A stretch of DNA of 31,763 nucleotides from a virus, in IMG/VR virus record IMGVR_UViG_3300034012_000302, positions 1-31,763 of that record; one strand, written 5' to 3'. Within the stretch, counting starts at the first letter, position 1; each line of letters opens with the position of its first letter. Below, piece after piece: positions 178 through 31,595 of this stretch. The translations under genes and the position numbers were made by a program. The notes below the pieces were generated by a model. It worked only from the letters and a program-made list of their open reading frames with translations, had not been told where the DNA came from and ran no database searches.

Positions 178-208
178 GTTCCACGAACGAAAGGTGGGTG
201 TTCTGACC

Positions 209-12179: not shown

Positions 12180-12189
12180 GTACACTCGC
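12180..12189 (+). promoter_or_regulatory. Accessory-gene box GTACACTCGC, copy A
   Basis: GTACACTCGC begins right after the scaffold stop and lies exactly 14 nt before ATGACC of the secreted propeller gene. The same ten bases at the same distance precede both minus-strand zinc-ribbon genes. The core TACACT fits a bacterial -10 hexamer (TAnnnT). If so, the transcript would start only about 10 nt before the ATG. No convincing -35 element or Shine-Dalgarno sequence is seen. The alternative is a site for a dedicated activator or repressor. Confidence 0.6.
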
Positions 12190-12203
12190 TGTCCTACCCC
12201 AGC

Positions 12204-13526
12204 ATGACCAAATCTTTCCTCTCTGTTCTTCTTCTGACCGCGACGGCTACCGCACAGTCGTCGTTCGGTCCCATCTTCACCTACTACCAGCAGGGCCGTG
12301 TCACTGACCATGCGGTTGGTGATGCGGGCGCTTCGATGTTCCTGGCCTTCCCCAACGTGGGCGGCACGGGTTCGTCTGCTGGCAAGGTGACTCTGCTGGA
12401 CAACCTGGCCTCTGGCAGTGTTGTCTGGTCGAAGCAGGCGGGCTACGAGATGCTCGCCGCTGAGGTTGATGCTGCTGCGAACACGGCTGCCCTGGTGGCC
12501 GTGACTGCGGAGCGCACTGTCAGCGGTGGTGCCATTCGTACCCGAATGTTCGCCTGGTCGGATGCGGGCGCTTCCTCGAGCACCCCGTCCTACACCGTCA
12601 CGATGGACGCTGGTGACAAGCTCGGCGCTCACATGAGTGAGAACGGCATCGCTGTTGGTTGGTGTTGGACCAGCACTAATGGCCTGACCGTCTACACTTG
12701 TGATACCGCGACTGGCCTCATTGGCGGCGAGAAGTTCACCCAGGTGACTTCGCAGCCGTTGCAGTCGGTCCTCTCGGCTGACGGCACCACCCTGTACGTG
12801 GAGGCCATGGACTACAACTACGTGTTCCACATCGACGATGATTCGAGCACGGCGATCTCGCAAAGCTCGATGTACCCCACCCTGTTCGAGGGCTTCACGG
12901 CGGGCCAGAGCTTCGCTTCGGCTGGCTTGGCTAGTTCTGCCCGTGACGTGTCGGTGCGTATGTCGGTGATTGGCAGCAATGCCACGATCTACGCCAACCA
13001 CTCGAACTTCTACGACTGGAACTACAACCCCTCTGCTCCCACCGAGCATGGTTTGTGGAAGACCCAGGGCTTCACCACTGGCGGCACCTACCCCGTGGCT
13101 TTGGCGATCAGCCCCGACGGTAATACGCTGTTCACGGGTCTGTTGAGCCCTCTGGTTGACCTCGGCGGCTTCGGTACGATTGACCTGAGCAACCAGACCT
13201 TGCCGTTGACCACCAGTGGCATGACGTTGGTCCAGTACCCGATCACGGGTCTGGCCGCCTACACGTTCTACTCGGACATCAAGTTCATGAACGACACCAC
13301 GGTGGTTGCCATGTCCCGTATCGCGGGCACTCACGGCAAGCTCACCTGCTGGACCAAGCAGGGTTCGACCTGGGGTCCCGCTTACACCACGGACTGGTCG
13401 ATCAGCGATCACTTCAACAACCGCTTGGCAGTCAACCCTGCCAACCGTGCTGCGGCATTGCGTTACGGGAATCCTCCCGGAGGCAACCTGGGCACGTACA
13501 TCACCCTCTACAACATCACGCCCTGA
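12204..13526 (+). CDS. Secreted beta-propeller-like accessory protein
   Basis: A 440-residue protein with no T7 counterpart, inserted between scaffold and capsid. Residues 1-17 are a Sec signal peptide (K3, hydrophobic LSVLLLTATATA, cleavage after A-T-A before Q18). The mature part is rich in Ser, Thr, Gly and aromatics and all-beta in appearance. Repeated segments such as VLSADGTTLYVEA (near 190) and AISPDGNTLFTG (near 300) are typical of WD40/NHL/PQQ-like propeller blades. The DNA has an exact 14-nt direct repeat (12321 and 12561), 240 nt apart. TTG Leu and TCG Ser codons look commoner than in neighbours (by eye). It is preceded by the GTACACTCGC box and followed after 3 nt by a lipoprotein gene. 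Export is well supported; the role is unknown. Possibilities are a surface-altering moron, a superinfection-exclusion factor, or a virion decoration. Confidence 0.65.
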   Translation: MTKSFLSVLLLTATATAQSSFGPIFTYYQQGRVTDHAVGDAGASMFLAFPNVGGTGSSAGKVTLLDNLASGSVVWSKQAGYEMLAAEVDAAANTAALVAVTAERTVSGGAIRTRMFAWSDAGASSSTPSYTVTMDAGDKLGAHMSENGIAVGWCWTSTNGLTVYTCDTATGLIGGEKFTQVTSQPLQSVLSADGTTLYVEAMDYNYVFHIDDDSSTAISQSSMYPTLFEGFTAGQSFASAGLASSARDVSVRMSVIGSNATIYANHSNFYDWNYNPSAPTEHGLWKTQGFTTGGTYPVALAISPDGNTLFTGLLSPLVDLGGFGTIDLSNQTLPLTTSGMTLVQYPITGLAAYTFYSDIKFMNDTTVVAMSRIAGTHGKLTCWTKQGSTWGPAYTTDWSISDHFNNRLAVNPANRAAALRYGNPPGGNLGTYITLYNITP

Positions 13527-13529
13527 TCT

Positions 13530-13913
13530 ATGAAGAACATCCTGATCTCCCTCTTGTGTCTGACCTCCCTGACTGCCTGCATCACCTCAGGCGACCTCCG
13601 AGCACTGGCTGACGTCCAAGAGACGTACCACCAGAAGACCGAAGCGGCTCTCGAAAAGATTGCCGACTCGACTGCCACGAAGGAGCAGGTGGACGAGGCC
13701 AAGGGTGAGATCAAGGATGCGTCGACCGAGTTCAAGGAGGCGGTCGAAGCCATTGCGAAAGAGGTTGAGGAGCGAACCGAAGCCACTCTCACGGGTCTCC
13801 CTGAGTCTGCTGAGGGTGGTCTTGTGGGCATTCTCGCAGCCGTCGCTTTGAACTTCTACCGCAACTCGACTCGCAAGAAGGACTTGGAGAAGTCCAAGGG
13901 TAAGACGGCGTAG
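13530..13913 (+). CDS. Lipoprotein with coiled coil and C-terminal hydrophobic segment (u-spanin-like)
   Basis: A 127-residue protein. The N-terminus MKNILISLLCLTSLTAC is a lipoprotein signal with lipobox L14-T15-A16-C17. Residues 25-85 are charged and helical, likely a coiled coil. Residues 96-110 (GGLVGILAAVALNFY) are hydrophobic, then a basic tail (RKKDLEKSKGK) that would stay in the cytoplasm. Outer-membrane lipid anchor, periplasmic helix and inner-membrane anchor in one chain is the design of unimolecular spanins such as T1 gp11 (131 residues), which fuse the two membranes at lysis. The hydrophobic stretch is short for a membrane span, and the location beside the propeller rather than the holin is unusual. 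A prophage-expressed lipoprotein moron is the main alternative. It starts 3 nt after the propeller stop and is followed by terminators. Confidence 0.6.
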   Translation: MKNILISLLCLTSLTACITSGDLRALADVQETYHQKTEAALEKIADSTATKEQVDEAKGEIKDASTEFKEAVEAIAKEVEERTEATLTGLPESAEGGLVGILAAVALNFYRNSTRKKDLEKSKGKTA

Positions 13914-13934
13914 TCAAACGCCTGAGACAACAAC

Positions 13935-13967
13935 AAGGCCGTGCTGGGGGCTCCCCGGTGCGGCCTT
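13935..13967 (+). terminator. Hairpin terminator after the lipoprotein gene
   Basis: AAGGCCG pairs with CGGCCTT, and within that loop CTGGGG pairs with CCCCGG, giving a long G+C-rich stem 22 nt after the lipoprotein stop. The following bases (CTGCATTGG) are only weakly T-rich, so termination may be partial. Confidence 0.6.
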
Positions 13968-14025
13968 CTGCATTGGTACAAGCTGACCCGACGAGATTCG
14001 CTACCTTAGGACCAGCTTTTGTGAG

Positions 14026-14065
14026 GCCTGCACGGGATGGTTCCCCGTGCGGGCTTCACTGTTTT
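14026..14065 (+). terminator. Strong intrinsic terminator upstream of capsid
   Basis: GCCTGCACGGG pairs with CCCGTGCGGGC (11 bp, one G-U pair) around a 7-base loop and is followed by TTCACTGTTTT. This is a textbook rho-independent shape, 58 nt beyond the first hairpin, so the accessory pair is closed off from the capsid gene. Confidence 0.75.
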
Positions 14066-14107
14066 AGATCATCGGAGACGCGCCCAACTGGCAGCACTCC
14101 CACACGC

Positions 14108-14123
14108 ATACGACTGATTGCTA
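14108..14123 (+). promoter_or_regulatory. Possible phage-polymerase promoter for the capsid gene
   Basis: ATACGACT at 14108-14115 equals positions -15 to -8 of the T7 promoter, followed by GATTGCTA where T7 has CACTATAG; only a few of the later bases agree. It is well placed, after two terminators and 110 nt before the capsid ATG. No second copy was found elsewhere, and T7-like polymerases of other genera use different promoters, so this is weak. Confidence 0.25.
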
Positions 14124-14225
14124 ATCCGCGAGACCTGGCCGCTTACGAGCGACAACCTTGTGTGAACGGACGGCTGATCTGATCGCTTCTGTTCGTTTCA
14201 ACCTGTTCGATTTCTAGTTACTCAA

Positions 14226-15344
14226 ATGAGTTACAACCCTACTCTGTCCAACCCCGGCCAGGCAAACGCTGGCGGTGCAACGGACGCACTCTTCCTCAAG
14301 CAGTACGCTGGCGAGGTCATGACGGCCTTCAACCAGTCCAACCAAATGATCGAGCTTGGCAAGGTCAAGACGATCTCCAATGGCAAGGTTACCACGATGC
14401 CTCAGATCGGCATCGCGTCGGCCAAGTACCACACCCCTGGTCAGTCGCTGCTCGACGACAACAACGCCTACGGCACCGCCTTCAAGCACGCCGAAGCCAA
14501 GCTCACCGTCGACGACATCCTGCTGGCCTCGACCTTCATTCCTGACATTCAGGAATGGATGATCCACTACGAGACCCGTGCTGAGTACGCCAAGCAGATG
14601 GGCGAAGTGCTGGCCCGCCAAGCGGATCGTCGCTTGATCGCTTGTGCGGCTCTGGCCAGCGGGGCTCTGACCGCCTTCGATGGAGCCACCTTCAACACCG
14701 ACTACGCGGCTCTGCCTGATGTTACTTTCAACAGCGGCACCGTTGGCTCTACGGCGGGCTCGTGGCTGGTTGACCTCAACCTCCAGAACTCGGCCACCGC
14801 CACGGTGAGTGCGGCCCTCTTCAACGCCATCTGGGCCACGGCGCGTGTCTTTGACGAGGCCAAGATCCCGACCTCTGATCGCTACATCATCTGCCGCCCC
14901 GAGTTGTTCTACCGTCTGTACAACCAGACGAACACCGCGGGCTTGATCATTCTCAACAACGACGTCAATGCAGGCACCAACGGTAATGCGTTGGAGCCGA
15001 AGATGATGATCAAGTACGCGGGCTTCACCATCATCCCGGTCCAGCAGGCTGCGCAGTCAGACTCGAAGCTCTGCACGTTGGGCGTTAGCACCGGCGACGG
15101 CACCAACATCTCTGGCATCGGTCCCTCTGGGAACACGACCAAGTACAACGTGAACCTGACTCAAATCTGTGCGGTCGCCTTCCACAAGTCGGCCATCGGT
15201 ACTGTCAAGCTCAAGGACTTGAGCATCCAGACTGAGTACAGCGTTGAGCGTCAGGGCACCCTGCTCGTCGCTCGCTACGCCATGGGTCACGCGGTGCTGC
15301 GTCCTGACGCCGCCATGCGCTGGACTTCGATCAACGTGGCCTAG
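14226..15344 (+). CDS. gp10: Major capsid protein, gp10-like
   Basis: A 372-residue HK97-fold capsid protein. The N-terminus MSYNPTLSNPGQANAGGATDALFLKQYAGEV, trimmed of its first residues, matches the T7 gp10 pattern of a short flexible arm leading to LFLKxxxGEV. It continues with FIPDIQEWMIHYETRAEYAKQ as in the family. T7 gp10A has 345 residues. The gene has its own non-coding upstream region with terminators and a hairpin terminator after the stop, so it can be transcribed as an isolated, highly expressed unit. No Shine-Dalgarno sequence is visible before the ATG (CTAGTTACTCAA). No slippery site with an extended gp10B-like frame was recognised; the terminator follows within 20 nt. Confidence 0.95.
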   Translation: MSYNPTLSNPGQANAGGATDALFLKQYAGEVMTAFNQSNQMIELGKVKTISNGKVTTMPQIGIASAKYHTPGQSLLDDNNAYGTAFKHAEAKLTVDDILLASTFIPDIQEWMIHYETRAEYAKQMGEVLARQADRRLIACAALASGALTAFDGATFNTDYAALPDVTFNSGTVGSTAGSWLVDLNLQNSATATVSAALFNAIWATARVFDEAKIPTSDRYIICRPELFYRLYNQTNTAGLIILNNDVNAGTNGNALEPKMMIKYAGFTIIPVQQAAQSDSKLCTLGVSTGDGTNISGIGPSGNTTKYNVNLTQICAVAFHKSAIGTVKLKDLSIQTEYSVERQGTLLVARYAMGHAVLRPDAAMRWTSINVA

Positions 15345-15361
15345 TCCTGATCTGACCTGAC

Positions 15362-15390
15362 AAGGAGGGGGACACCCCGTCCTCCTCCTT
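15362..15390 (+). terminator. Intrinsic terminator after capsid
   Basis: AAGGAGGGGGAC pairs with GTCCTCCTCCTT (12 bp, one G-U pair) around a five-base loop, starting 17 nt after the capsid stop. A pyrimidine-rich tail (ATTCCCTTCTCTCTC) follows. It occupies the place of the T7 terminator T-phi, which lies just downstream of gene 10. Confidence 0.8.
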
Positions 15391-15428
15391 ATTCCCTTCT
15401 CTCTCTCTCCACACAGACCACTCAACCA

Positions 15429-16040
15429 ATGGCAGTCGTAACCTCCACCACCCGCCTCCAGGCAGTCAACAAGATCCTGGCCGCGGTGAACGAAGCTCCC
15501 GTAGCCTCCCTCCCGGCAACTCGCCGTGACGCAGTGTTAGCTGAGGCCGTGCTGGACGAGGTTACTCGGGAAGTCCTCAGCCGTGGTTGGCACTTCAATA
15601 CCGAGACGATCACCGTCACTCCGAACGTGTCGAACGAGATCCCCGTCCAGGCTACCTGGGCAAAGGTCGACCTCAATGACCCCAGCTACTACCGCGGCGA
15701 CTACGACATCGTTGTCCGCGATGCGAAGCTGTACAACACGGTGACCAACTCGAGCACGTTCACCACGTCCATGAAGGTGGAGGTCGTGCTATTCCAGGAC
15801 TTCGAGAAGATCCCTGAGGCGGCCCGCCGCTACATCATGGTTCGAGCTGCTCGCATCTTTCAGGACACTGCGGCCGGTGCTCCCAACATCCACCAGTTCC
15901 AAGAGCGTGACGAGATGATGGCCCTGCTCGACCTGCGTGATCAGGAGGCCACCGACGCCGACTACACTGTGTTCGACTCCTGGGCCGTCCAGCGTGTCGT
16001 GAACCGCCTGTCCCCGCTGTCTGGCATCGGTCCCTACTAA
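15429..16040 (+). CDS. gp11: Tail tubular protein A (adaptor), gp11-like
   Basis: A 203-residue homologue of T7 gp11, which forms the dodecameric adaptor between portal and nozzle. The N-terminus TTRLQAVNKILAAVNEAPVASL and the following EVTREVLSRGWHFNTE are the family signature. Length is close to T7 gp11 (196). The region before it carries the capsid terminator and then a C/A-rich stretch without a Shine-Dalgarno sequence. Its stop overlaps the gp12 start (TAATG), so the two tail-tube proteins are probably made together. Confidence 0.94.
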   Translation: MAVVTSTTRLQAVNKILAAVNEAPVASLPATRRDAVLAEAVLDEVTREVLSRGWHFNTETITVTPNVSNEIPVQATWAKVDLNDPSYYRGDYDIVVRDAKLYNTVTNSSTFTTSMKVEVVLFQDFEKIPEAARRYIMVRAARIFQDTAAGAPNIHQFQERDEMMALLDLRDQEATDADYTVFDSWAVQRVVNRLSPLSGIGPY

Positions 16041-18850
16041 TGCTCCTAGCTAAGTCTCAGCCCAACCTGGTTGGCGGCGTGTCTCAGCAGCCTGACGACC
16101 TCCGCCTTGAGAGCCAGTGTCGCATCCAAGAGAACGCCTACGGAACGATTGAGGAAGGCCTCAAGAAGCGCCCCGGCACGCTCTGGTTGAACGGCCTGGA
16201 GACCAACCCCAGCGACGACTTCGTTGGAGGCTCCTACCACTGGGTCAATCGAGACGCGGCTGAGCGTTACTTGTTCGGAGTCGTTAGCACCAGCAGTGGG
16301 GCCTCCGCGACCATCCGGGCATGGGACCTGGAAGGCAATGCCATCCCCATCATTGACACGGGTGGGCCGGGGCTTACTGCCCTGATCAACACCTACGTGG
16401 TGCCTAGCTTTGACTCGCTGGCTGACTTCAAGTGGACCACGGTGAACGACTACACCTTCCTGGTGAACACGTCGATTGTCCCAGAGGTCGACTCTGGCAA
16501 CCCCTCCCCTACCCAGGATGCTCGGACTGCGTACCTGTACGTGCGTCAGGGCAACTACAAGACCAACTACCGTGTGGAAGTGTCGACGGCCTCTGCAAGC
16601 AAGACCGCTGAAGTGGCCACCTGGAACGGCACTGCGGCTGGTCCTGTCCAGGAAGAGTGGAACGTCTCTCTAAGCGCGGCGGGACCCAACGGCTCCGTCT
16701 GGACGGTCACTGTCCTGGGCTACACCAAGTCCTACACCGTCACTGGCAGCCCCACCGCGCTTCAGGCGGCGGCCGCCATCGCCTCAGCGATTAACTCCGC
16801 AGTCGGCGGGGACTCGATGGAGGACATTGTCACGGCTACCAATCCTAGCACCACGCCTGCGTTTCGCATCAAGGCCGACGTGGCGGGCGTGTCCTTCACC
16901 CCGACTGTGGTCAACAACAGTACTGGTTCGGCTACGGTCACCGTCGTCACTGAGTCCACTGGCACCGAGTACAACTCGATCAAGACCGACGACATCGCTG
17001 AGCAGCTTCGGACGCAGCTCGATGGTGGCGGCTGGACGGTTACCCGCTCGGGCAGCGTGCTCAAGATCACCAATGGTACGGCCAACATCACCCGCATCTT
17101 CACGTCGGACTCAGTTGGGGACACCGCCCTCAAGGGCTACCACCTGACCGTGGACAACTTTGATGAGCTGCCTCCTCGATGCTTGGACGGCACCGTCCTG
17201 CAAGTGCAGGGAGCCGTGGAAGCGAACGAGGATGACTTCTATGTTCGCTTCGTGACCCCCGTACCCAACACCTTCGGGGAGGGCGAGTGGCGTGAGGCCG
17301 TTGGGCCTGACCGCCCCGTTGCTCTCAAGAAGATGCCGCTGGTCCTGATCCGTAAGCAGGACGATGCACTGGGAACCGTCACCACTGTCCCCTTCGCCAT
17401 CTACTTCTCGCTCGAGGAGTACCCCTGGCTGGAGTGCCAGACCGGTGACATTGAGACCAACCCCGCCCCCAGCTTCGTTGGCAAGCCGATCACCGACATC
17501 TTCTTCCACAAGAACCGCTTTGGCATCCTGACGGAAAGCTCCGTCTGCATGAGCGAAGCAGGCATCTACGGCAACTTCTTCCGCACGACCGTACGGCAGT
17601 TGCTCGACAGCGACGTGATCGACATCCAGGCGGCCCACACTGAGGTTGCCAAGCTCCAGCACGCGGTGCCCCTCAATGAGCGCCTGCTGGTGTTCGCTGA
17701 GCAGGCCCAGTTCGTCGTGAGCGGGGACCCGATCTTGACCCCCAAGACGGCGAGCATCCAGTTCGTGACGAGCTACCCGATCAACACGGCTGTCGCCCCG
17801 ATTGTCGTGGGCAAGAACGCCTACTTCGTGTCAGACCGACAGGAGTGGGCCTCGCTGATGGAGTACCAGCAGATCGCTGACCCCAGCGACATTGCCAAGG
17901 GAAGCTACATCGCCCAGAACATCAGCCTGCAGATCCCGCGGTACATCCCCCAGGGTGTCACCACGATCACTGCCTGCGAGAGCGAGCGTGTGATCGTTGT
18001 GCTCAGCTCGGCAGAGCCGACGTCACTGTTCATCTACAAATACTTCATCGACGGGGACCGCGTGCTCCAAGCGGCCTGGTCGAAGTACACGTTCGACCGG
18101 GATGTCCTGAGCTGCCAGTTCTACGGTGACAAGCTGTACATCATGGCGGGCCTGGACAGCGCCAGTGCCTTGGAGGTCATGGACTTCAAGTTTGGCACTG
18201 ACGACTTCAGCACGATCACGGCTCCCCTGATGGACCGCCAGATTAGTCTGAACAGCGCAACCAAAACGTACTACCCTGCCGGAAACAAAACCTTCATAAC
18301 GCTGCCTGCGTCGTACAACCTGGATGCCCCGTTCGTCCCTGTGATCACGTTCGCCATCGGGAGCTACACCTCCCCGACCATCGAGACGACCGACCCTGTG
18401 TCTGGCCTACCGTTCGCCAACCCTACGGTCAGCCTACCTAACAACCAGACGGCCACCACGGGCATGATCCTTGGTAGCCTCTACACCATGCGTTACCAGT
18501 TTGGTAAAGCCGACCTCCGTGAGGAAGCTACCAACGGTGGTCGAATCCCCATCGCTGAAGGACGCTACCAGGTTAAGTGGGGCACCATCCGCTACGTCAA
18601 CACCAACCACTTCACTGTGGACGTCCAGATTGACAGCGAGACGGCATCAACTATGCTGTTCTCTGGAACGCTGGGGAACAGCGGCGGCAACGCCCTGGTC
18701 AAGTTGGACCAAGGTCAGTACAGGTTCCCGGTCTTTGCCAGGAACGACGAATTCACCGTAACCATCACCAACAACACCCCATGGCCGAGCACACTGATTG
18801 GAGCCGAATGGATCGCGGAGTTTACTACCCGGTTCCCTCGGGCTCAATAG
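16040..18850 (+). CDS. gp12: Tail tubular protein B (nozzle), gp12-like
   Basis: A 936-residue homologue of T7 gp12 (794), the hexameric nozzle that closes the tail tip. The N-terminus SQPNLVGGVSQQPDDLRLESQC and EGLKKRPGT are diagnostic. Residues about 180-320 form a Ser/Thr/Val-rich insertion (SVWTVTVLGYTKSYTVTG and similar), probably a beta-rich domain on the nozzle that accounts for much of the extra length. The segment KPITDIFFHKNRFGILTE near 480 is conserved in the family. Nozzle insertions can contact the host surface, which matters here because no tail-fibre gene is seen. Its 3' end overlaps the gp13-like gene by 43 nt. Confidence 0.95.
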   Translation: MLLAKSQPNLVGGVSQQPDDLRLESQCRIQENAYGTIEEGLKKRPGTLWLNGLETNPSDDFVGGSYHWVNRDAAERYLFGVVSTSSGASATIRAWDLEGNAIPIIDTGGPGLTALINTYVVPSFDSLADFKWTTVNDYTFLVNTSIVPEVDSGNPSPTQDARTAYLYVRQGNYKTNYRVEVSTASASKTAEVATWNGTAAGPVQEEWNVSLSAAGPNGSVWTVTVLGYTKSYTVTGSPTALQAAAAIASAINSAVGGDSMEDIVTATNPSTTPAFRIKADVAGVSFTPTVVNNSTGSATVTVVTESTGTEYNSIKTDDIAEQLRTQLDGGGWTVTRSGSVLKITNGTANITRIFTSDSVGDTALKGYHLTVDNFDELPPRCLDGTVLQVQGAVEANEDDFYVRFVTPVPNTFGEGEWREAVGPDRPVALKKMPLVLIRKQDDALGTVTTVPFAIYFSLEEYPWLECQTGDIETNPAPSFVGKPITDIFFHKNRFGILTESSVCMSEAGIYGNFFRTTVRQLLDSDVIDIQAAHTEVAKLQHAVPLNERLLVFAEQAQFVVSGDPILTPKTASIQFVTSYPINTAVAPIVVGKNAYFVSDRQEWASLMEYQQIADPSDIAKGSYIAQNISLQIPRYIPQGVTTITACESERVIVVLSSAEPTSLFIYKYFIDGDRVLQAAWSKYTFDRDVLSCQFYGDKLYIMAGLDSASALEVMDFKFGTDDFSTITAPLMDRQISLNSATKTYYPAGNKTFITLPASYNLDAPFVPVITFAIGSYTSPTIETTDPVSGLPFANPTVSLPNNQTATTGMILGSLYTMRYQFGKADLREEATNGGRIPIAEGRYQVKWGTIRYVNTNHFTVDVQIDSETASTMLFSGTLGNSGGNALVKLDQGQYRFPVFARNDEFTVTITNNTPWPSTLIGAEWIAEFTTRFPRAQ

Positions 18851-19281: not shown

Positions 19282-19283
19282 CC

Positions 19284-19868: not shown

Positions 19869-19869
19869 A

Positions 19870-22515: not shown

Positions 22516-22516
22516 G

Positions 22517-25500
22517 ATGCAAGACAACACTACTGGACGGACCATGTGGATCACCGGGACCTATCCTTACCAAGAGGCTCCGAGTGCCCCCGAGACGGGT
22601 GGAGGCTTCAGCACCAAAGACTACACCGACCTGACTCTAGACAACCTCTTTGCTCCTGTTCGGGGCCTCGAGGGGGCGATCAAGTCTGTCTACGGTCTGG
22701 CTGACACTGTCGTTGGCGATGCTCTGCCCAACTACGACAAGCGCCTGCTCGGGGAAAGCTCCACGATCAGTGGCGGCCTGATCGAGGGCCTGACCCAGTT
22801 CGTCGTACCGTACGTTGGCCTGACTCGCCTTGGAAAGATCGGTCAGCTCGGCAAGGTTGGCCGCTTCCTTGGCAGCGGTTCCATCGCTGGAGACGTGGCC
22901 GCGGGAGCACTTGTCGACTTCACCGTGTTCGAGGGATCGAGCGGCCGCCTGAGCGACCTGGTCAAGGGCACTGCCTTTGAGAACGACGTCAGCCGCTACC
23001 TCGAGACCGACGAGGACGACAGCGAGTTCGAGGGCCGCCTCAAGAACCTGGCTGAGGGTGGTATCATCGGTGTCCCTCTGGACCTCCTGTTCCATGCGAG
23101 CAAGGTCACCAAGACGTACAACAAGCTCCGTCGCAGCGGCGTCACTCAGGCTGAGGCTGCCAAGGCCGCCACGACCTACTACGAGGAGGCCATTGACGGC
23201 CTGCTCACGAAGCAGATGCACCGTAAGGCTCACGACCTGCGCGTCGCTGAGGGCCGTGCTCCGCGCTTCGAGCAGGTGTACGGCAACACCAAGCTGTCGG
23301 ACATTGTCTCCAAGACGGGTGCCCTGACCCAGCTCGAGGGAGCCGACCGCGAGATGTTCGAGACCTTCATCACGAAAGTCGGACCGAAGCTGTTTGACGA
23401 CATCTCTGTTCGCTTCGAGCCCACCACTCCTGGTGCCTCCAACTTCGACTACCGCTACAAGACCATCAGCCTGCTCAGCGAGAGCTTCCAGCTCGGGAGG
23501 ATCCGCAAGGACCTGATGCACGAAGTCTGGCACAGCTTGGAAGGACGCCTCACCCCGGCTGAGTCCAAGAAGATCACGACCCAGTTCGTCGAAGCCAGGA
23601 AGGCTCACTTTGAGAACTCTCCTGGGGCGGTTCGTCGCTTCGAGCAATTGAAGGCGGCAATGACCCCTGCTCAGACCGAGGACGCGATTGACGAGATCGT
23701 CGAAGCTGGCGAGTATGAGTTCATCTCCCCGGCCGAGTGGTTCGCCACCAACGCCACTGACCTGACCGAGTCCCGCCTGGCCAAGCTCAAGGCGATGCAG
23801 GGGGGCGGCATCAAGAACACCCTACTCCGCATCCGTGAGGTCTTCTCGGACTTCGTGTCCATGATGCGGTCCCGCTTTGGCGGCAAGAATCTGGACACGA
23901 TTGTTGGGGACTTCCTCGGCGGTCGGAAGAGCCAAGCTGCCTCCTCGATCTCCCGCCTCAAGGGCCGTGGGGACCTGGCTTACGCCCGCTCCTTCAAGGT
24001 CACCCAAGAAGAGTTCGACGCGATCTCCCAGGCCGCTGAGCAAGCCAATGGCCAGGGTCTCCGCGGTGCTGACTTCGCTGCGAGCATCCCCTACCCCCGC
24101 ACCCTCAATGGGCAGCAGCGCGTTACGGGTTTTCCGCTGGAGTACCCCAAGTACGGCAGCGGCGACAACGCCGTCGACGTGAAGGTGCCCAACGACCCGC
24201 CTGGTGCCAACGTGATCTACGCCATGGTTGTCGCCATAAACAACCGCGGTGCCAAGGCTGAGGCCGTTGAGAATTACCTCCGCCGTCTGGGTGTGACTGT
24301 CACGGAAGACGCCGAGAAGCTGCTCACGGCGCGCCTGGATGCTGAACGGAAGGCTGTTAAAGAACTCCTGGTTGGTGAGGCCAAGGGCCCCTCTCAGCCG
24401 TCCAGGGAATCGCTGTCCCTCGGTGAAGTGATCGTCGACGAGGACGGTAGCAGGACGTTCATCCGCAACGCCAGTGAGGACGATGGTGGCGGCTCTGCTA
24501 CTCTGTCTTCCAGGCGGCGCAAGGAGATGCTCAGCGATATGGCGGAGGCCGACAAGAGCATTGTTGGGCTTGGCCTGGACAAGCAGGAAGAGATGAACCA
24601 GCGTGCCCTGTCACGCCTCCAGCTTGGTGAGACCTCTGGCTGGTCGTTCGTGGAGGACTTCCTCGAGAACGAACCCCGCGAAGTCCAGGACAAGGTCTAC
24701 GCCTACCTGGATGCGCTGGTCGCTGAGGCTGGTGAGGCTGGTGATTTCCCTACTCGGAAGCCCCGCCCCGGTGAGGTTGTCGCCAAGGCTAAGCGTACGG
24801 AAGCTGGAGCGGGCATGTCGAAGGGCGGCCGCGGGTCCTCCCTGGCAGGCGCGGACATCCAGCTCACTGAGCAGGACGTGAAGGCCGTGCTCGCCAAGCT
24901 GGAGTACAGCAAGCCTGAGCTTGTCCTGCAGGTCAAGCGGAGCCGTGAGGCTTCGGCCAAGGTCACCCTTGAGTCGATCGCTGAGCGTCGGAAGGCCCTG
25001 ATGGAAGAGGGCATGGAGATCCAGGCCAAGGTCGAAGCGGGTGAGTTGAACGATACCGACATGGATGCGTTCGCCGGGCGTGCTCGTCGTCAGTTTGACG
25101 AACTCCAGCGGGCGGAAGAGCGCCTGCTCGCTGCCCAGGCTGAGGAGGGTGCTGAGGTCTCTGCGAAGGCTAAGACCCCGAAGGCTGAGGCCACGGAAGC
25201 CCCTGTTTCTACTCAGGAGGCCGGGGGGAACAGCGAAACTAAGGGTCCCGATGAGCCCCCGAGCACGCCTCCTGAGGCCACGGAAGCCCCTGTTTCTACT
25301 CAGGAGGCCGGGGGGAACAGCGAAACTAAGGGTCCCGATGGGCCCCCGAGCACGCCTCCTGCGGCCGCAGCGGTTGAGGAGCCCGCTCCTGTGAAAGAGC
25401 CTGAGCCTGAACTTCCTCCCATGGAAGACAAGGTTGAGGACTTCCTGCCGCCCGAACCGCCCAAGGTGGAGGCACCCGAAGCTCCGAGTGAACCTCGGAA

Positions 25501-28483
25501 GCCCAAGCGCCTGGTCGAACTGGGCTCTGAGAAAGGTACACTCACTAGCGAGGACCTGCTTGATCTGCGTCGTGCCGTCAATGAACGGAGCGAGCAGGAG
25601 TGGCAAGAGCTGAACATCAACCCTCGCGACCTCAATGAGGACGAGCTGGTTAGCCTGTTCCTCCACCACCGCGGGATCAACCTCAACCGGATGAACCTGA
25701 ACGCCGCCGAAGAGGTTGGTGTCTTCCGTCTGCTCGAAGAGTTCGGGTTCGGAAAGCGCCTCCGCGACCAGGGCATTACCGCCCTGGACAAGGTGGGCTT
25801 CCCACAACTGGAGAGCATGATCGGCGAGCACGCTGCCATGACTGGCCAGAACCTCTACGACACGGCGGTCGAACTTATTCGAGGTGCGGACAGCCTGGCC
25901 GAGTTGAAGGTTACGCTGGGTGTCGCCCGTATTCGCCTGGTGCAGGCTAACGCTGAGCTGACTCCCAAGCTGCATGACCTGTTCAAGATGGCGGATGAGG
26001 TTGGAGCGGAGAACCTCCCCGATGAGGTCGTCCTGGACGTCCTGCTCGAAGTGGATGAAGTGGCTAACCTGGCTCAGGCTGTCTCTGGAGCGGCCTCGGA
26101 AGGTGGCCGCTACCTGCAGGCCCTGAATCTGCCGGTCGACTCCAAGGGCGTGTCTCTGAGCCTGGACAAGGGTCTGGAGAAGGTCCGTGAGAAGATCCGC
26201 AGCGGCACTGTGGACGTTGCTACCAAGAAGGCCATGCTCGAAGGCGTGGGGGGCAAGGAGCAGGCGGTCAAGTTCATCGTCAAGCTGAGCGAGACCCTGG
26301 ATGCCAACACGGGCCCCCTGGCAGGCAAGTCCTACATGAAGATGGCCAACCTGGTGAAGATTGCCAATGACGCCAAGAAGGTGGGCTTCTGGGACATCCA
26401 CAACACCTACTTCATCAACAACCTGGTGTCGTCCAGTCAGACGATCATCGGTGTCCAGATGATCTCGAACATCCTGACGACCGCCCTGGCTCCTCTGGAG
26501 CGAGCGGCGGGTGGTCGGTTCGGGGACGCCCTCAAGCTCTACAAGCACTACATCACCAGCTTCGCGGAGTCGGTGAACATCGCCAAGTCGGCCCTCAAGG
26601 AGAACCGCCCGATTGGTCTTGGTCGCCGCTACGACGGCCTGCAGACCCCGACGATCAGCCGCAAAACGATCCCGGCATTGCAAAAGCTGGCGAACAAGGT
26701 GGGTGAAAAGCCCGTCGACTTTGCCACTTCTGCTCTGGGGTTCCCGTTGCGGGGCATCCAGGCTGGCGACGAGTTCTTCAAGCAGTTGAACTATCGTGCC
26801 CAGCTCAAGACGGCCGTGGAAGCCAGCCTTGCTCGTCAGGGAATCAGCGGCACCGCGGCCTCGGCTGAGATGCAGAAGGCCATGGACATTGCCATCGTCA
26901 ACGGCGAATTCGCGACGAACGAGCGCCTGATTCAGGAGGGCTGGCAGGAAGCTGCAAAGACTACCGACCCCAAGGACGTCAAGGCCATGATGAGGAAGGC
27001 CCTGGCGTATCGCAAGACCAAGTGGGATGAGCTGGAGGGCGTTGTCCCCACCTTCACCAACCACGCTGACCGTGCCACCTTCCTGGCTAAGGAGGTCACT
27101 CTGCAGGCTGATAGTCGGGGTGGAATGTTTGGCGACGCCGCTGAAGTGATCAAGTCGGGGGTCAAGCGTTTCCCGCCTGCCCGTCTGTTCCTGCCGTTCG
27201 TGAGCACGCCGATCAATGCGCTGTTCTATGCGGGCGACCGACTGGTGGCCCCTGCTCAGGCAATCTCCTACCTGATTGGGGAGGTCACCAACTCCCATGG
27301 GGCGATGGTCAAGGTGGGAGAGAAGCTCGGCTTCCCGGCCAAGACCATGGACTGGTTGAAGAACAATCACTCCCGTATGTACAAGGACCTGTCCAGCGGG
27401 GACCCCGCAATCGTGGCCGACGCCAAGGGCCGTGCTGCCACTGGAGCCGCCATGATCGGTCTGGGCTACACCCTGGCGATGGGCGGTATCGTCACTGGCC
27501 ACGGTCCCAAGAACCGCGAGGAGCGCATCACGTGGATCGCCGCGGGCAACCAGCCATACTCGGTGAGGGTTGGGGACACTTGGTTCTCGTACTCGCGCCT
27601 GGACCCCCTGAGCACGATGCTCGGGTCGGTGGCCGACCTGTTCATGGCTGCCCAGTACACCCGCGACGACGAGGAAGCTCTGGATCAACTGACGTACGCG
27701 ATGAACGCTCTGTGGTTCTCCACGACTAACAACCTGACCAACAAGAGCTACCTGCAGGGCTTCAAGTCCTTCCTGGAAATGATCACTGGGCAGGACCCGT
27801 CGCGGTTCCAGAAGTGGACCAAGCAACAGGTGGCTGGCGGCTGGATGCCGTTTGGATCGGCTGTTGGCACCCTTGCCAATACGATCGACCCCACCCGTCG
27901 CAGTGTGGACGCGGACTTCATGGATGGCATCCTTGACTCTGTGGTCAACCGCATCCCAGGCCTGTCGACCAATGAGCCCGTCCGCGATGCGTTCGGTAAG
28001 CCCATCCTCCGTGCTGACCAGCTCGGTCCTGACGTGCTGTCCCCGATTGCCACGACGGCAGTCAAGAACGACATCATCTCTAAGGAGTTCGAGGCTTTGG
28101 GCCGCTCGTTCAATGCTCCGAGCAAGATGCAGCAGGGCTTGGACCTGACGAAGATCGACATCGGACCCAACCGCACGGCTTACGGCCGCTTCCAGGAGCT
28201 GGCCGGGGAAGTCAGGATTGGCGGCCGCAACCTCGAGGAGGCCATGCAGGAGTTGCTGACCTCTGCTCGCTACCAGCAGGCCTCAGCCTACTCGACCGAC
28301 ATGGTTGAGTCCCCGCGGGTCTACATGGTGCGGGCTCTGTTTTCCAAGTACCGTCAACGGGCCTTCCGTCAACTCAAGAAGGAGAGCCCGGTTCTCAATG
28401 CGGCCCTGATGCAGTTGGACAGCCAAGCACGGGCGTCCAAGTACGGTGTCGCACCCTCTATTGTTGATTTGACCGCACGCTAA
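22517..28483 (+). CDS. gp16: Giant internal virion protein D, gp16-like, with zincin-type HExxH motif
   Basis: A 1,988-residue ejection protein, about 670 longer than T7 gp16. The T7 N-terminal transglycosylase is not recognisable. Instead residues 300-430 carry LMHEVWHSLEG with H335-E336-x-x-H339 and a downstream EWFA (E407), the zinc-site arrangement of zincin metallopeptidases seen in phage polyvalent and virion proteins. Around 890-1010 is a Pro/Glu-rich linker including two copies of an 87-nt repeat. The C-terminal 700 residues carry the conserved virion-core region: IHNTYFINNLVSSSQTIIG, RLFLPFVSTPINALFYAGDR, a hydrophobic GAAMIGLGYTLAMGGIVTG near 1640, and WIAAGNQPYSVRVG. A peptidase acting in the host envelope during DNA entry is the inference. 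Other starts are possible; ATG 22517 lies 1 nt after the gp15 stop. Confidence 0.9.
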   Translation: MQDNTTGRTMWITGTYPYQEAPSAPETGGGFSTKDYTDLTLDNLFAPVRGLEGAIKSVYGLADTVVGDALPNYDKRLLGESSTISGGLIEGLTQFVVPYVGLTRLGKIGQLGKVGRFLGSGSIAGDVAAGALVDFTVFEGSSGRLSDLVKGTAFENDVSRYLETDEDDSEFEGRLKNLAEGGIIGVPLDLLFHASKVTKTYNKLRRSGVTQAEAAKAATTYYEEAIDGLLTKQMHRKAHDLRVAEGRAPRFEQVYGNTKLSDIVSKTGALTQLEGADREMFETFITKVGPKLFDDISVRFEPTTPGASNFDYRYKTISLLSESFQLGRIRKDLMHEVWHSLEGRLTPAESKKITTQFVEARKAHFENSPGAVRRFEQLKAAMTPAQTEDAIDEIVEAGEYEFISPAEWFATNATDLTESRLAKLKAMQGGGIKNTLLRIREVFSDFVSMMRSRFGGKNLDTIVGDFLGGRKSQAASSISRLKGRGDLAYARSFKVTQEEFDAISQAAEQANGQGLRGADFAASIPYPRTLNGQQRVTGFPLEYPKYGSGDNAVDVKVPNDPPGANVIYAMVVAINNRGAKAEAVENYLRRLGVTVTEDAEKLLTARLDAERKAVKELLVGEAKGPSQPSRESLSLGEVIVDEDGSRTFIRNASEDDGGGSATLSSRRRKEMLSDMAEADKSIVGLGLDKQEEMNQRALSRLQLGETSGWSFVEDFLENEPREVQDKVYAYLDALVAEAGEAGDFPTRKPRPGEVVAKAKRTEAGAGMSKGGRGSSLAGADIQLTEQDVKAVLAKLEYSKPELVLQVKRSREASAKVTLESIAERRKALMEEGMEIQAKVEAGELNDTDMDAFAGRARRQFDELQRAEERLLAAQAEEGAEVSAKAKTPKAEATEAPVSTQEAGGNSETKGPDEPPSTPPEATEAPVSTQEAGGNSETKGPDGPPSTPPAAAAVEEPAPVKEPEPELPPMEDKVEDFLPPEPPKVEAPEAPSEPRKPKRLVELGSEKGTLTSEDLLDLRRAVNERSEQEWQELNINPRDLNEDELVSLFLHHRGINLNRMNLNAAEEVGVFRLLEEFGFGKRLRDQGITALDKVGFPQLESMIGEHAAMTGQNLYDTAVELIRGADSLAELKVTLGVARIRLVQANAELTPKLHDLFKMADEVGAENLPDEVVLDVLLEVDEVANLAQAVSGAASEGGRYLQALNLPVDSKGVSLSLDKGLEKVREKIRSGTVDVATKKAMLEGVGGKEQAVKFIVKLSETLDANTGPLAGKSYMKMANLVKIANDAKKVGFWDIHNTYFINNLVSSSQTIIGVQMISNILTTALAPLERAAGGRFGDALKLYKHYITSFAESVNIAKSALKENRPIGLGRRYDGLQTPTISRKTIPALQKLANKVGEKPVDFATSALGFPLRGIQAGDEFFKQLNYRAQLKTAVEASLARQGISGTAASAEMQKAMDIAIVNGEFATNERLIQEGWQEAAKTTDPKDVKAMMRKALAYRKTKWDELEGVVPTFTNHADRATFLAKEVTLQADSRGGMFGDAAEVIKSGVKRFPPARLFLPFVSTPINALFYAGDRLVAPAQAISYLIGEVTNSHGAMVKVGEKLGFPAKTMDWLKNNHSRMYKDLSSGDPAIVADAKGRAATGAAMIGLGYTLAMGGIVTGHGPKNREERITWIAAGNQPYSVRVGDTWFSYSRLDPLSTMLGSVADLFMAAQYTRDDEEALDQLTYAMNALWFSTTNNLTNKSYLQGFKSFLEMITGQDPSRFQKWTKQQVAGGWMPFGSAVGTLANTIDPTRRSVDADFMDGILDSVVNRIPGLSTNEPVRDAFGKPILRADQLGPDVLSPIATTAVKNDIISKEFEALGRSFNAPSKMQQGLDLTKIDIGPNRTAYGRFQELAGEVRIGGRNLEEAMQELLTSARYQQASAYSTDMVESPRVYMVRALFSKYRQRAFRQLKKESPVLNAALMQLDSQARASKYGVAPSIVDLTAR
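25187..25360 (+). repeat. 87-nt tandem repeat, two copies, in the gp16-like gene
   Basis: Two in-frame 29-codon units (25187-25273 and 25274-25360) that differ at one base, changing DEPP to DGPP. Each encodes E-A-T-E-A-P-V-S-T-Q-E-A-G-G-N followed by S-E-T-K-G-P-D and P-P-S-T-P-P. They lie in a disordered linker. Near identity, including third positions, means the duplication is recent or kept by recombination. Confidence 0.95.
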
Positions 28484-28485
28484 TC

Positions 28486-28713
28486 ATGGACGAAAAGAAC
28501 GACCACACGATCCAAGCACTCGTCGCCATCGGCCGTATCGAAGGGAAGCTGGATGCAATGGCTGCTCAGCAGCACAAGCTCCTGGAGACCGACGAAAAGC
28601 ACGATGGTAGGATTGGCTCGCTCGAGCAGGACCGCTCCAAGCTAATTGGCATTGGGATCGCCGCGGGAGCCTTCTCGAGTTGGATCACGAACCTCATCAT
28701 GGGGAAACACTAA
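28486..28713 (+). CDS. Holin candidate with coiled coil and C-terminal membrane span
   Basis: A 75-residue protein: charged, helical N-terminal part (1-50, likely coiled coil with IGRIEGKLDAM and GRIGSLEQDR) and one C-terminal hydrophobic segment, about 52-72 (KLIGIGIAAGAFSSWITNLIM), then GKH. This resembles XhlA-type membrane lysis proteins. It lies between gp16 and the small terminase, where T7 has tail fibre 17 followed by holin 17.5. No endolysin is seen nearby or elsewhere in the window. The stop overlaps the next start (TAATG). The holin role is inferred from topology and position. Confidence 0.55.
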   Translation: MDEKNDHTIQALVAIGRIEGKLDAMAAQQHKLLETDEKHDGRIGSLEQDRSKLIGIGIAAGAFSSWITNLIMGKH

Positions 28714-28967
28714 TGGGTAAGAAAGAAGTCGCAGACACGCTCAGCAACATCCAGGAAGCTCTCACCAAGGAGCTGCTCCGACGGATCGCGGAAGGCACGG
28801 CTACCAGTGCCGACCTGAACATCGCCCGCCAGTTGCTCAAGGACAACAACATCGACGCCACGATCACCCCTGACAGCAGCCTGGCGACGTTGGGCAAGAT
28901 CCTCCCGTTCGACCGGGAGAACGTCCAGATGCACAGTACGAACTTTGCAGAGAAGCACGCTAAGTAG
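28713..28967 (+). CDS. terS: Terminase small subunit, gp18-like
   Basis: An 84-residue protein just before the large terminase, in the position and size of T7 gp18 (89). The sequence is helical (EALTKELLRRIAEGTATSAD, then NIARQLLKDNNID) and acidic, ending in a conserved PFDRENVQM-type tail. It would recognise concatemeric DNA and load gp19. The ATG at 28713 overlaps the holin stop (TAATG); the frame is open for 11 codons upstream inside the holin gene. Its stop overlaps the large terminase GTG start (TAGTG). Confidence 0.82.
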   Translation: MGKKEVADTLSNIQEALTKELLRRIAEGTATSADLNIARQLLKDNNIDATITPDSSLATLGKILPFDRENVQMHSTNFAEKHAK

Positions 28968-30691
28968 TGGTCCAGAACGAGAAGCTCAAGGACTTCCGCA
29001 ACTTCCTCTACCTTGTGTGGAAGGAGTTGGGATTGCCCGATCCCACGCCCGTCCAGTACGACATTGCATATGCGATGCAGCACGGGACCAAGCGCCAAGT
29101 GATCGAAGCGTACCGCGGTGTGGGCAAGAGCTGGATCGCTTCGGCCTTCGTGGTGTTCAACCTGTACTGGAATCCAGCGTTGAACATCCTGGTCGTGTCC
29201 GCGAGCAAGCAGCGGGCTGACGACTTCACGACGTTCACCCTGCGCCTCCTGACCGAGATCGCGTGGTTGAACCACCTGTACCCTCAGGGTGAGCAGCGGT
29301 GCAGCAAGGTAGCCTTCGACGTGTTCGGGGCACCGCCTGCTCACGCCCCCTCAGTGCGGTCTGTGGGCATCACTGGTCAGATCACGGGTAGCCGTGCTGA
29401 CCTGATCATCCCGGACGACATCGAGGTGGCGAACAACTCCTGGACTCCTGGGATGCGCGAGAAGCTCCTGGAGTCGATCAAGGAGTTCGACGCCGTCCTC
29501 AAGCCGGGAGAGACCTCCCGCATCTGCTTCCTGGGAACCCCACAGAGTGGGGAGTCCATCTACACTGTGCTCGGAGACCGTGGCTACACGATCCGCATCT
29601 GGCCTGCTCGGATGCCCAACGAGAAGCAGCGTCGTGCATACGGCAACAAGCTGGCTCCGTACATCTCTGAGCTGCCGCTGGAGGTAGGTGAGCCTGTCGA
29701 CCCCGACCGCTTCGACGACCTCGACCTGCAGGAGCGTGAGCTGTCCTATGGACGCTCGGGCTTCAATCTGCAGTTCATGCTCGACACGTCGATCAGTGAC
29801 TCCAATCGCTATCCCCTCAAGCTGAGCGAGCTGATCGTGGACGACCTGGACGTCACGACCTGCTTCGAGAAGTACATCTACAGCACGGACAAGTCCCTGG
29901 CTTGGGACATCGAGACGGTAGGCTTCTCGGGGGACAGGTACTACCGCCCCCTGGAGCGCATCGGTAAGCCCGTTGCCCACGACGGCAGGGTGCTCGCCAT
30001 CGACCCCTCTGGCCGGGGCAAGGACGAGCTGGGCTACACCGTGCTCGGCAAGAGCGCCCACAACATGGTTTTACTGGCGAACGGTGGACTCCGTGGAGGC
30101 TACGCCGTTGAAAACCTGACCAAGCTCGCCCAGTTGGCCAAGGACTACCAGGTCAATGAGATCATCTACGAGGCCAACTTCGGGGACGGTATGTGGGCTC
30201 AGATCTTCACCCCGATCCTCAAGGAGATCTACCCCTGCACCCTGACCGAGGTCAAGCACTCGGTCCAGAAGGAGCGTCGGATCATCGAGACGCTCGAGCC
30301 AATCATCAACCGCCACCACCTGATCGTCGACCGCCGTCTGATCGAGAAGGACCTGGCGTTTGTCCGTGACGACCACCCTGAGCTGGGTGTTGAACAGCGC
30401 CTCAAGTACAGCCTAATGTACCAGCTTTCGCACATCACGCTGGATCGCGGGTCGCTCATTCACGACGACCGCCTGGACTCCCTGGCCATCGCAGTCAACT
30501 ACTGGGTGGAGCGAATGGGAGCATCAGTTGATGAGGCTCTTGCACGTCGAAAGGCAGAGTTGTGGGAGAAGGAGCTGGAGCAGTTCCTTGAGCACGCGAT
30601 TGATCCAACGGGGAAGCCTCCTGAGCCTCAGCCGTCGTGGTTGCAGTCAAGTCGGGGGTCTCAGCGACTGCCCGGTCTACGTCCTCGTTAG
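28967..30691 (+). CDS. terL: Terminase large subunit, gp19-like
   Basis: A 574-residue DNA-packaging motor. Walker A is EAYRGVGKSW with K54, Walker B is ADLIIPDDIE with D150 and D151, and the coupling motif ICFLGTPQSGESI follows. The nuclease domain shows LAIDPSGRGKDE with D346, YEANFGDGM, and DDRLDSLAIAVNYW. The N-terminus (NFLYLVWKELGLPDPTPVQ) closely resembles T7 gp19. The start is GTG in a TAGTG overlap with the small subunit. The last 33 codons include a segment duplicated after the stop (HAIDPTGKPP), and the last 197 nt are overlapped antisense by a zinc-ribbon gene. T7-like terminases resolve concatemers into unit genomes with terminal repeats. Confidence 0.95.
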   Translation: MVQNEKLKDFRNFLYLVWKELGLPDPTPVQYDIAYAMQHGTKRQVIEAYRGVGKSWIASAFVVFNLYWNPALNILVVSASKQRADDFTTFTLRLLTEIAWLNHLYPQGEQRCSKVAFDVFGAPPAHAPSVRSVGITGQITGSRADLIIPDDIEVANNSWTPGMREKLLESIKEFDAVLKPGETSRICFLGTPQSGESIYTVLGDRGYTIRIWPARMPNEKQRRAYGNKLAPYISELPLEVGEPVDPDRFDDLDLQERELSYGRSGFNLQFMLDTSISDSNRYPLKLSELIVDDLDVTTCFEKYIYSTDKSLAWDIETVGFSGDRYYRPLERIGKPVAHDGRVLAIDPSGRGKDELGYTVLGKSAHNMVLLANGGLRGGYAVENLTKLAQLAKDYQVNEIIYEANFGDGMWAQIFTPILKEIYPCTLTEVKHSVQKERRIIETLEPIINRHHLIVDRRLIEKDLAFVRDDHPELGVEQRLKYSLMYQLSHITLDRGSLIHDDRLDSLAIAVNYWVERMGASVDEALARRKAELWEKELEQFLEHAIDPTGKPPEPQPSWLQSSRGSQRLPGLRPR

Positions 30692-31178
30692 CACGCGATT
30701 GATCCGACGGGGAAGCCTCCCGGTCTGCGGCCGCTGTAGCCCTCGCCGCAACCATCTTGAGGATGGCTTTGGTGCCCGCGGGGAGGCCCAACATGGGGTC
30801 GTTCAGGACAGTCTCAACCGCCTTGATCGTCTTGGCAGAGAGTGTTTTGGACTTGGCGGCCATCTTTTGGCGTCGACTTTCGCGTAAGTTGCCGATGTGG
30901 CACCGTTGACATAACCTAGTGGTAACACTGGACTTAGGACCGTTGCACTGGGTACAGTTGCCCGCCTTAGCCCTTTGCGACTTTGTAGATCTGACCGACT
31001 TACACATACGGCAGTAACCGCTGCGGTTGTTGAAGTCCTGCAAGGGCAAAACATGTCTGCAATCCGAGCATCGACGGTGCGTCGTTGAGCAGATGTTGCA
31101 CAGGACTTGGTTGGCGGTTGCGAAGCCGCCGCCTGTGCTTCCAGAGCACTTGAGGCAGGTACGGGTGGGCGTGGTCAT
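30495..31178 (-). CDS. Zinc-ribbon protein with extended tail, overlaps terminase antisense
   Basis: A 227-residue protein beginning MTTPTRTCLKCSGSTGGG. Three zinc-binding units are visible in the first 95 residues: CLKC with CNIC, CSDC with CRMC, and CTQC with CQRC. The middle CxDCxxVLPLxxF form is like ribbons that precede HNH or endonuclease VII domains, but no HNH catalytic motif follows. After about residue 105 comes a helical basic part (AAKSKTLSAKTIKAVETVL) and a low-complexity acidic tail with EASPSDQSRA and EASPLDQSRA. The tail lies opposite the terminase 3' end. Its start overlaps the stop of the upstream paralogue (ATGA), and a GTACACTCGC box lies 14 nt before the ATG. DNA or RNA binding is likely; the role is unknown. 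Confidence 0.65.
   Translation of the reverse strand: MTTPTRTCLKCSGSTGGGFATANQVLCNICSTTHRRCSDCRHVLPLQDFNNRSGYCRMCKSVRSTKSQRAKAGNCTQCNGPKSSVTTRLCQRCHIGNLRESRRQKMAAKSKTLSAKTIKAVETVLNDPMLGLPAGTKAILKMVAARATAAADREASPSDQSRANEDVDRAVAETPDLTATTTAEAQEASPLDQSRAQGTAPAPSPTTLPFDVQEPHQLMLPFAPPSS
30591..30720. repeat. 99-nt spaced direct repeat at the terminase 3' end
   Basis: A 31-nt sequence at 30591-30621 recurs at 30690-30720 with one mismatch. The spacing is 99 nt, 33 codons, so the terminase frame is kept: HAIDPTGKPP occurs inside terminase and again directly after its TAG. In the minus-strand gene the copies encode EASPLDQSRA and EASPSDQSRA. The mismatch is silent in the terminase frame but changes Leu to Ser in the zinc-ribbon frame. 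Confidence 0.9.
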
Positions 31179-31465
31179 GATTGTCCGGGGGTGCGAGTGT
31201 ACTTTGTTGGGGAGCCTGGAACGGGGGTCTGAACTCCGCTACGGGCACGCCCTTCAGCTCGAAGTCTTCGCAAGCTCTTCTCTCTCACCTTACTGCACGT
31301 AGTGCAGTAGATGCCGAGGTTTGAGAAGCTCCGTTGTCGCAGAATCCGTCCGCAGTCTGGGCATCGACGGTGCGTCTTGCGGCAAGTGTTGCACAGCACT
31401 TGGTTGGCAGTTACGAAGCCCCCACCCGTACTACCAGAACACTTAGGGCAGACATGAATGGTCAT
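31175..31465 (-). CDS. Zinc-ribbon protein, paralogue of its downstream neighbour
   Basis: A 96-residue protein starting MTIHVCPKCSGSTGGGF. Its first 55 residues are closely similar to the adjacent gene: CPKC, NQVLCNTC, THRRCPDC, then YCTTC, giving two zinc-binding units. The third unit and the long tail are absent; the C-terminus is basic then Pro/Thr-rich. The frame is open upstream to 31519, but this start is chosen because the homology begins here and the GTACACTCGC box is placed identically to that of the paralogue. The two genes form a minus-strand operon with ATGA overlap. They are the only genes I accept on the minus strand. Confidence 0.68.
   Translation of the reverse strand: MTIHVCPKCSGSTGGGFVTANQVLCNTCRKTHRRCPDCGRILRQRSFSNLGIYCTTCSKVREKSLRRLRAEGRARSGVQTPVPGSPTKYTRTPGQS
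31193..31202 (-). promoter_or_regulatory. Accessory-gene box GTACACTCGC, copy C
   Basis: Read on the minus strand, GTACACTCGC lies 14 nt before ATGACC of the 227-residue zinc-ribbon gene. It falls inside the 3' end of the upstream paralogue, so it would allow separate expression of the second gene. The core TACACT could be a -10 element. Confidence 0.55.
31291..31309. repeat. Perfect inverted repeat TACTGCAC / GTGCAGTA
   Basis: Eight-base arms separated by 3 nt, inside the 96-residue zinc-ribbon gene (around its YCTTC codons). It could be a dyad operator or RNA hairpin; coding constraint on the cysteine codons is an alternative explanation. Confidence 0.3.
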
Positions 31466-31595
31466 GCTTACCCCAAAGTGCGAGTGTACCCGCCCTAGAA
31501 TGGGCCCAAACAGGGGCACCCTCTGTAACGCTCCAGGATCGCGTATAAACGATTTCGGGCGGAAAAGGTCCTAGGGTAGCCACCCACCCCTCAAA
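31466..31595. other. Intergenic region upstream of the minus-strand operon
   Basis: About 130 nt between the minus-strand zinc-ribbon operon and a possible plus-strand gene. Apart from box B it contains CGTATAAACG (near 31535), which could be a -10-like element in either direction. No terminator, tRNA or att-like repeat was recognised. Confidence 0.4.
31480..31489 (-). promoter_or_regulatory. Accessory-gene box GTACACTCGC, copy B
   Basis: Read on the minus strand, GTACACTCGC lies 14 nt before ATGACC of the 96-residue zinc-ribbon gene. GGGG in the spacer (ending 5 nt before the ATG) may help ribosome binding. This copy lies in true intergenic DNA, which supports a promoter rather than a coding explanation. 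Confidence 0.6.

Follow-up and report, generated by a model that had tools for sequence, protein, structure and literature searches.

How integrase-bearing T7-like phages silence their genes as prophages is still an open question; for the phage LUZ100, the available text of its description only proposes a MarR-type switch (PMC10134795). The locus analysed here, a single virus record of 31,763 bases (hereafter the window), carries a short, direction-sensitive box that recurs across the genome and provides a concrete site at which to test for prophage silencing, one that may allow added genes to be controlled independently of the phage polymerase. What kind of element, then, is this box?

The gene content of the phage comprises an integrase, a T7-like polymerase, a portal, a scaffold, a capsid and a terminase, and the family matches of the integrase (PF00589) and the polymerase (PF00940) bear out the description of an integrase-bearing T7-like phage given in a previous sequence-only reading. 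The presence of an integrase in turn suggests a need for silencing. Two near-identical IMG/VR contigs prolong the window, L010 beyond its right end and L097 by the 8751 nt preceding its left end, giving a whole genome of ~42 kb when the overlaps are added up; the early region, missing from the window, is supplied by L097, a contig of the same phage. The left end of the window falls within a GNAxV-type repeat-rich frame (window 1-180), and other frames of this type lie at about 6050-7000 and 8330-8900 of L097. A LAGLIDADG-like protein is encoded downstream of the DNA polymerase gene (window 8035-8385; PF14528, E 8.6e-5).

The box was originally noticed as GTACACTCGC at 12180-12189 (+), 31193-31202 (-) and 31480-31489 (-), in each case exactly 14 nt ahead of ATGACC, in front of a gene labelled 'propeller' and two zinc-ribbon genes, and our analysis confirmed these positions. 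The accompanying claim that no core phage gene has the box fails, as the exact 10-mer is found within the RNA-polymerase gene at 3492-3501 (+) and GTACACTCAC within the gp16-like gene at 25536-25545 (+). Nor is the box limited to three accessory genes, given that early genes and gene interiors carry sites too: the early region has four GGTACACTC sites (L097 976, 3007, 3774 and 8046), all on the + strand of the window. The element, with the consensus GGTACACTCRCW, thus has nine sites per ~42 kb. Over these nine sites the conserved part forms a sharp asymmetric 12-bp block, and nothing is conserved in the 45 nt upstream except one 0.8-bit position.

Table. Copies of the box and genes discussed in the text, in positions of the window
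Feature	Position	Strand	Remarks
Box GGTACACTCGCT	12179..12190	+	Precedes propeller gene
Box GGTACACTCGCA	31479..31490	-	Precedes zinc-ribbon gene 1
Box AGTACACTCGCA	31192..31203	-	Precedes zinc-ribbon gene 2; overlaps 3' end of gene 1
Box GGTACACTCGCA	3491..3502	+	In RNA-polymerase gene, in frame (Gly-Thr-Leu), ~190 nt before next gene
Box GGTACACTCACT	25535..25546	+	In 1988-aa gp16-like gene, in frame (Gly-Thr-Leu)
Tyrosine integrase	297..1253	+	PF00589, E 3.2e-19
Single-subunit phage RNA polymerase	1250..3691	+	PF00940, E 4.8e-85
Accessory gene ('propeller' not confirmed)	12204..13526	+	Signal-peptide-like start by eye
Zinc-ribbon-like gene 1	31175..31465	-	Cys pairs, sub-threshold Pfam match
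Zinc-ribbon-like gene 2	30495..31178	-	Paralog of gene 1; start overlaps gene 1 end

With repeats masked, no one-strand 9-mer of the window and early region exceeds its expected count as strongly as GGTACACTC, which has seven copies on the + strand compared with a null mean of 0.083 and a maximum of 2 in 2000 shuffles, in which codons were kept within genes and swapped among synonymous places. The best 9-mer reaches a p-value of 1e-10 in the real sequence and 5e-8 in the best of 200 shuffles. At eight letters GCCGGGGC outranks the box word, so that the lead belongs to the 9-mer; GGTA+CACTC tops the list of 4+5 dyads. The 33 reading frames examined, of which two have approximate starts, contain eight Gly-Thr-Leu triplets; three of these are spelled GGT-ACA-CTC, against 0.02 expected, and this excess makes chance an unlikely source of the gene-internal copies as well. 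As an empirical background, 261 other loci that partly overlap one another (3.02 Mb) held 18 copies of GGTACACTC, counting both strands. On the basis of the codon-keeping shuffles and this background we rejected a chance origin of the box, as the sequence-only reading had anticipated. Shuffles of start regions (25 window starts, 60 nt each, one zinc-ribbon gene kept) yielded a 10-mer common to two starts at one offset in 4 of 300 cases; this test was devised after the match had been seen, and the genome-wide enrichment is the stronger evidence. Duplication alone was likewise rejected, accounting for the zinc-ribbon pair and not for the remaining sites. In the literature the letters of the box turn up in 66 papers, among them a phage paper in which an excerpt shows them in a primer (PMC10269466).

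Six sites are not buried in genes (L097 976, 3007 and 3774; window 12179, 31490 (-) and 31203 (-)) and all six are oriented with the gene that they precede, while the three gene-internal sites also read in the direction of their host gene. Five of the nine lie in gaps or leaders, one over a gene 3' end and three inside genes. Two sites (12179 and L097 3007) begin inside the stop codon of the gene before them; at 12179 the stop of the scaffold gene ends with the first G of the box. L097 3774 comes after the stop of a 9-codon frame (read by eye). In the early region, L097 976, 3007 and 3774 precede early genes and the site at 8046 is inside a gene. From the end of GGTACACTC the next start is 16 nt away at 12179, 28 nt at L097 3007 and 79 nt at L097 3774, and at L097 976 a long leader of several hundred nt separates the site from the next mapped gene; the fixed 14-nt spacing is true of three sites only (3/9 at a short fixed distance). 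The unburied sites lead into early genes, one of them encoding DUF932 (TIGR03299), as well as into the propeller gene and the zinc-ribbon pair.

The propeller gene and both zinc-ribbon genes look accessory, as had been suggested, because they have no match (E <= 1e-4) in the genus-level relative G036, nor in the partial genome G034. In G036 the scaffold gene continues directly to the homolog of window 13530-13913, with no propeller gene between them. The name 'propeller' itself found no backing, as no family was detected at cut-off and the structure model was unusable (mean pLDDT 30); the zinc-ribbon label is based on Cys pairs together with a Pfam match below threshold. The zinc-ribbon genes are paralogs, so this pair shares its box through duplication, a route that the first reading had allowed for. 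The two boxes are identical at 12/12 positions and the spacers at only 5/12; the box has been retained while the spacer diverged.

A separate hairpin is located at window 13970-14025, upstream of the capsid gene. Its minus strand carries GGTCCTAAGGTAGCGAA...GTCGGGT and matches a stretch of 23S rRNA, GGTCCTAAGGTAGCGAAATTCCTTGTCGGGT, that two bacterial genomes contain. Counterparts are present at L006 7825 and in G036 (L266 15508-15521, minus strand), where the 15-nt core TCGCTACCTTAGGAC is identical despite 42% capsid protein identity, and the 14-mer CGCTACCTTAGGAC occurs in 8 of 274 loci, every one from this clade. A 13/15 copy of the 23S-like word is also found on the minus strand at window 31568-31582, ~100 nt ahead of zinc-ribbon gene 1.

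The sequence-only reading interpreted the box as a host sigma70-type -10 element that provides accessory genes with near-leaderless host promoters. TACACT retains the T, A and T of the -10 hexamer, yet at all nine sites it matches only 4/6 positions of the sigma70 consensus, which may not be the type used by the host, and conservation extends over 12 bp, taking in GG before and CRC after the hexamer. The start codons of three genes do come 14 nt after the 10-mer, but the best -35 element at 15-19 nt scores 2-3/6 at each of the nine sites (again, the host promoter type may differ), where a sigma70 promoter would have its two hexamers 16-18 nt apart; no upstream word is common to the nine sites, and in the stretches covered by the sigma70 scans, which hold six of the boxes, no box was called. 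Divergent sigma70-like pairs are found elsewhere, at L010 8976-9003 and 9049-9022 (4 found, 2.3 expected in the stretch). Service of both early and accessory genes would agree with LUZ100, whose early genes have host promoters according to the portion of its description at hand (PMC10134795). Overall, host promoters of this kind are not borne out and we regard them as very unlikely; the box looks more like a regulator binding site.

A promoter core of the phage's own single-subunit RNA polymerase would account for a box that recurs on the gene strand above chance, with seven of the eight exact GGTACACTC sites on the gene-rich strand. The same word count applied to LUZ100 returned leading words that belong to its mapped phage promoter; those of TRX32-1 and CRP-113, other T7-like phages with like leading words, assemble 15-17 bp promoter-like words. 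Applied to 16 partial loci, the count mostly returned nothing strong, so the value of the controls rests on these three complete genomes, among which only LUZ100 has mapped promoters. SP6/K11 promoters contain ACACT, as does the box. Measured against the controls, however, the conserved block is short: it spans 12 bp, where ~14-18 bp or more would be expected, and 13 positions, one standing apart from the rest, exceed 0.8 bit; the corresponding number of positions is 19 in TRX32-1, 16 in CRP-113 and 21 in LUZ100. The KP34 polymerase, in the accessible part of its description, has only four promoters, which are 14-16 nt long and of two unrelated kinds (PMC6834552), so exceptions to these expectations exist. 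By eye, none of the nine sites has an A/T-rich stretch right after CACTC, and the VSW-3 promoter ends in TATA, unlike the box; such a stretch is not universal, since the KP34 promoter end (GAGTA) is less A/T-rich in the same excerpt (PMC6834552). Two sites fall close to LUZ100 promoter places, namely 3491, where the polymerase gene ends, and 12179, in the interval from the scaffold to the capsid gene, and L097 8046, ~2 kb upstream of the polymerase gene, has a LUZ100 promoter within 150 nt of the equivalent place. On the other hand, three box sites are in the early region, where the control promoter words have no match in their own genomes, and two are on the minus strand, where matches in the controls are weak (none in TRX32-1; one at 5 mismatches in LUZ100; four in CRP-113, the best at 2 mismatches and the others at 3). 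With its early region masked, G036, whose polymerase is 48% identical, has no comparable word, and a dyad scan of the present genome detected no other phage-promoter word as strong. Relative to the LUZ100 promoters, which share a leading one-strand word, an integrase-bearing T7-like genome and partly matching places in the portions of the sources consulted (PMC10134795; OP329100), the box has a shorter block, lacks the A/T stretch ahead of the start, and is also present in the early region and on the minus strand. On balance, we find it improbable that the box is a promoter core of this polymerase.

The box might instead work in RNA, as a 5' leader element in processing or translation, or mark the edge of a mobile gene cassette. 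In two relatives, G036 and G034, the same early region holds recurring hairpins whose loop has GGACACTCTC; one of these begins 86 nt before a DUF932 match, just as L097 3774 begins 88 nt before the DUF932 gene, and the box and propeller gene together occupy a space for which G036 has no counterpart. The top word of both relatives is GGACACTCTC, in the loop and upper stem of these strong hairpins, and G036 has one more copy within its DUF932 gene. But whereas two G036 hairpins fold with z-scores of -5.0 and -4.7, three boxes folded no better than shuffles (z -0.5, -0.7 and +1.2), and RNA structure at the boxes was rejected on this ground; the ACACTC common to box and hairpins may thus be chance. 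Copies within reading frames fit neither a leader element nor a cassette edge, and both possibilities appear distinctly unlikely. By eye, most of the G036/G034 hairpins are type II hammerhead-like, including repeated elements between early genes of G036 (L267 14535-14610 and 15615-15700, minus strand; the two with fold z-scores of -5.0 and -4.7), and Rfam named none of the hairpins in the stretches of G036/G034 searched. The early leader of the present phage contains a type III hammerhead ribozyme candidate (L097 1289-1345; fold z -2.1) with a score of 32.4 bits, under the gathering score of 48.5 (E 3.7e-4). Between the integrase and polymerase genes of G036, ARAGORN detected a tRNA with a TTA (stop) anticodon (L267 11766-11840, minus strand), which may be a suppressor tRNA or an attachment-site remnant.

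The asymmetry of the box, its direction relative to genes, its placement in gaps and the sharp 12-bp block are best fitted by a one-way regulator site working like the stoperators of mycobacteriophage L5, which we put forward tentatively, as the reading we favour. On this model GGTACACTCRCW would be an asymmetric DNA control site that this temperate-looking T7-like phage employs at several genomic positions, a phage-specified DNA-binding protein would bind it, and the bound box would switch or block transcription on its way into early and accessory genes, much as the L5 operator/stoperator sites do, in the service of lysogeny or of timing. No repressor or regulator emerged when a set of early proteins that included part of the small frames was scanned against Pfam and PHROGs. 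Sites with other single mismatches are almost absent in this genome, where more variation is usual among natural regulator sites.

Between strains of 93-95% identity two sites are comparable: 12179 is retained in L006 (93% identical), which speaks for a regulator site, and the copy at 3491, within a conserved protein motif, is altered to GGTACGCTC in L096, which speaks against one. Neither G036, with a terminase 69% identical to that of this phage, nor the partial G034 contains GTACACTC, so that a function of the box is without support from deep conservation. Polymerase relatives of 33%-98% identity were not found among the best 80 of 588 matches or by genome scans; those at 47-48% were reached through the terminase, among the matches listed. 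The genome scans identified 13 terminase relatives at 44-59%, the box word being absent from the stretches examined, and GGTACACTCRCW occurs three times in all across five host genomes of terminase relatives.

To our knowledge, stoperator-like silencing sites are known from mycobacteriophages only. On a speculative view, which we consider rather doubtful, a one-way silencing code of 12 bp would let a temperate T7-like phage control its early and added genes apart from its own polymerase. The regulator-site reading draws on the L5-like cluster A operator/stoperators, which in the available text are likewise asymmetric (12-13 bp; 13-mers in L5), present in many copies per genome and oriented with transcription; they are located in promoters, leaders and short gaps (PMC9283540), where five of the nine boxes lie in gaps or leaders. 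The resemblance is a likeness and not membership, because no regulator was found, the sites are fewer (nine here and, in that text, >20 in L5) and three of the nine are inside genes; the sequence is also different and the phage is T7-like. The start-associated sequences of cluster K phages, as far as the consulted excerpt describes them, offer a second parallel, being asymmetric 13-bp words just upstream of starts, mostly in one orientation and of unsettled function (PMC3203893), whereas the box described here keeps a fixed distance to the start at three of nine sites and also has gene-internal copies.
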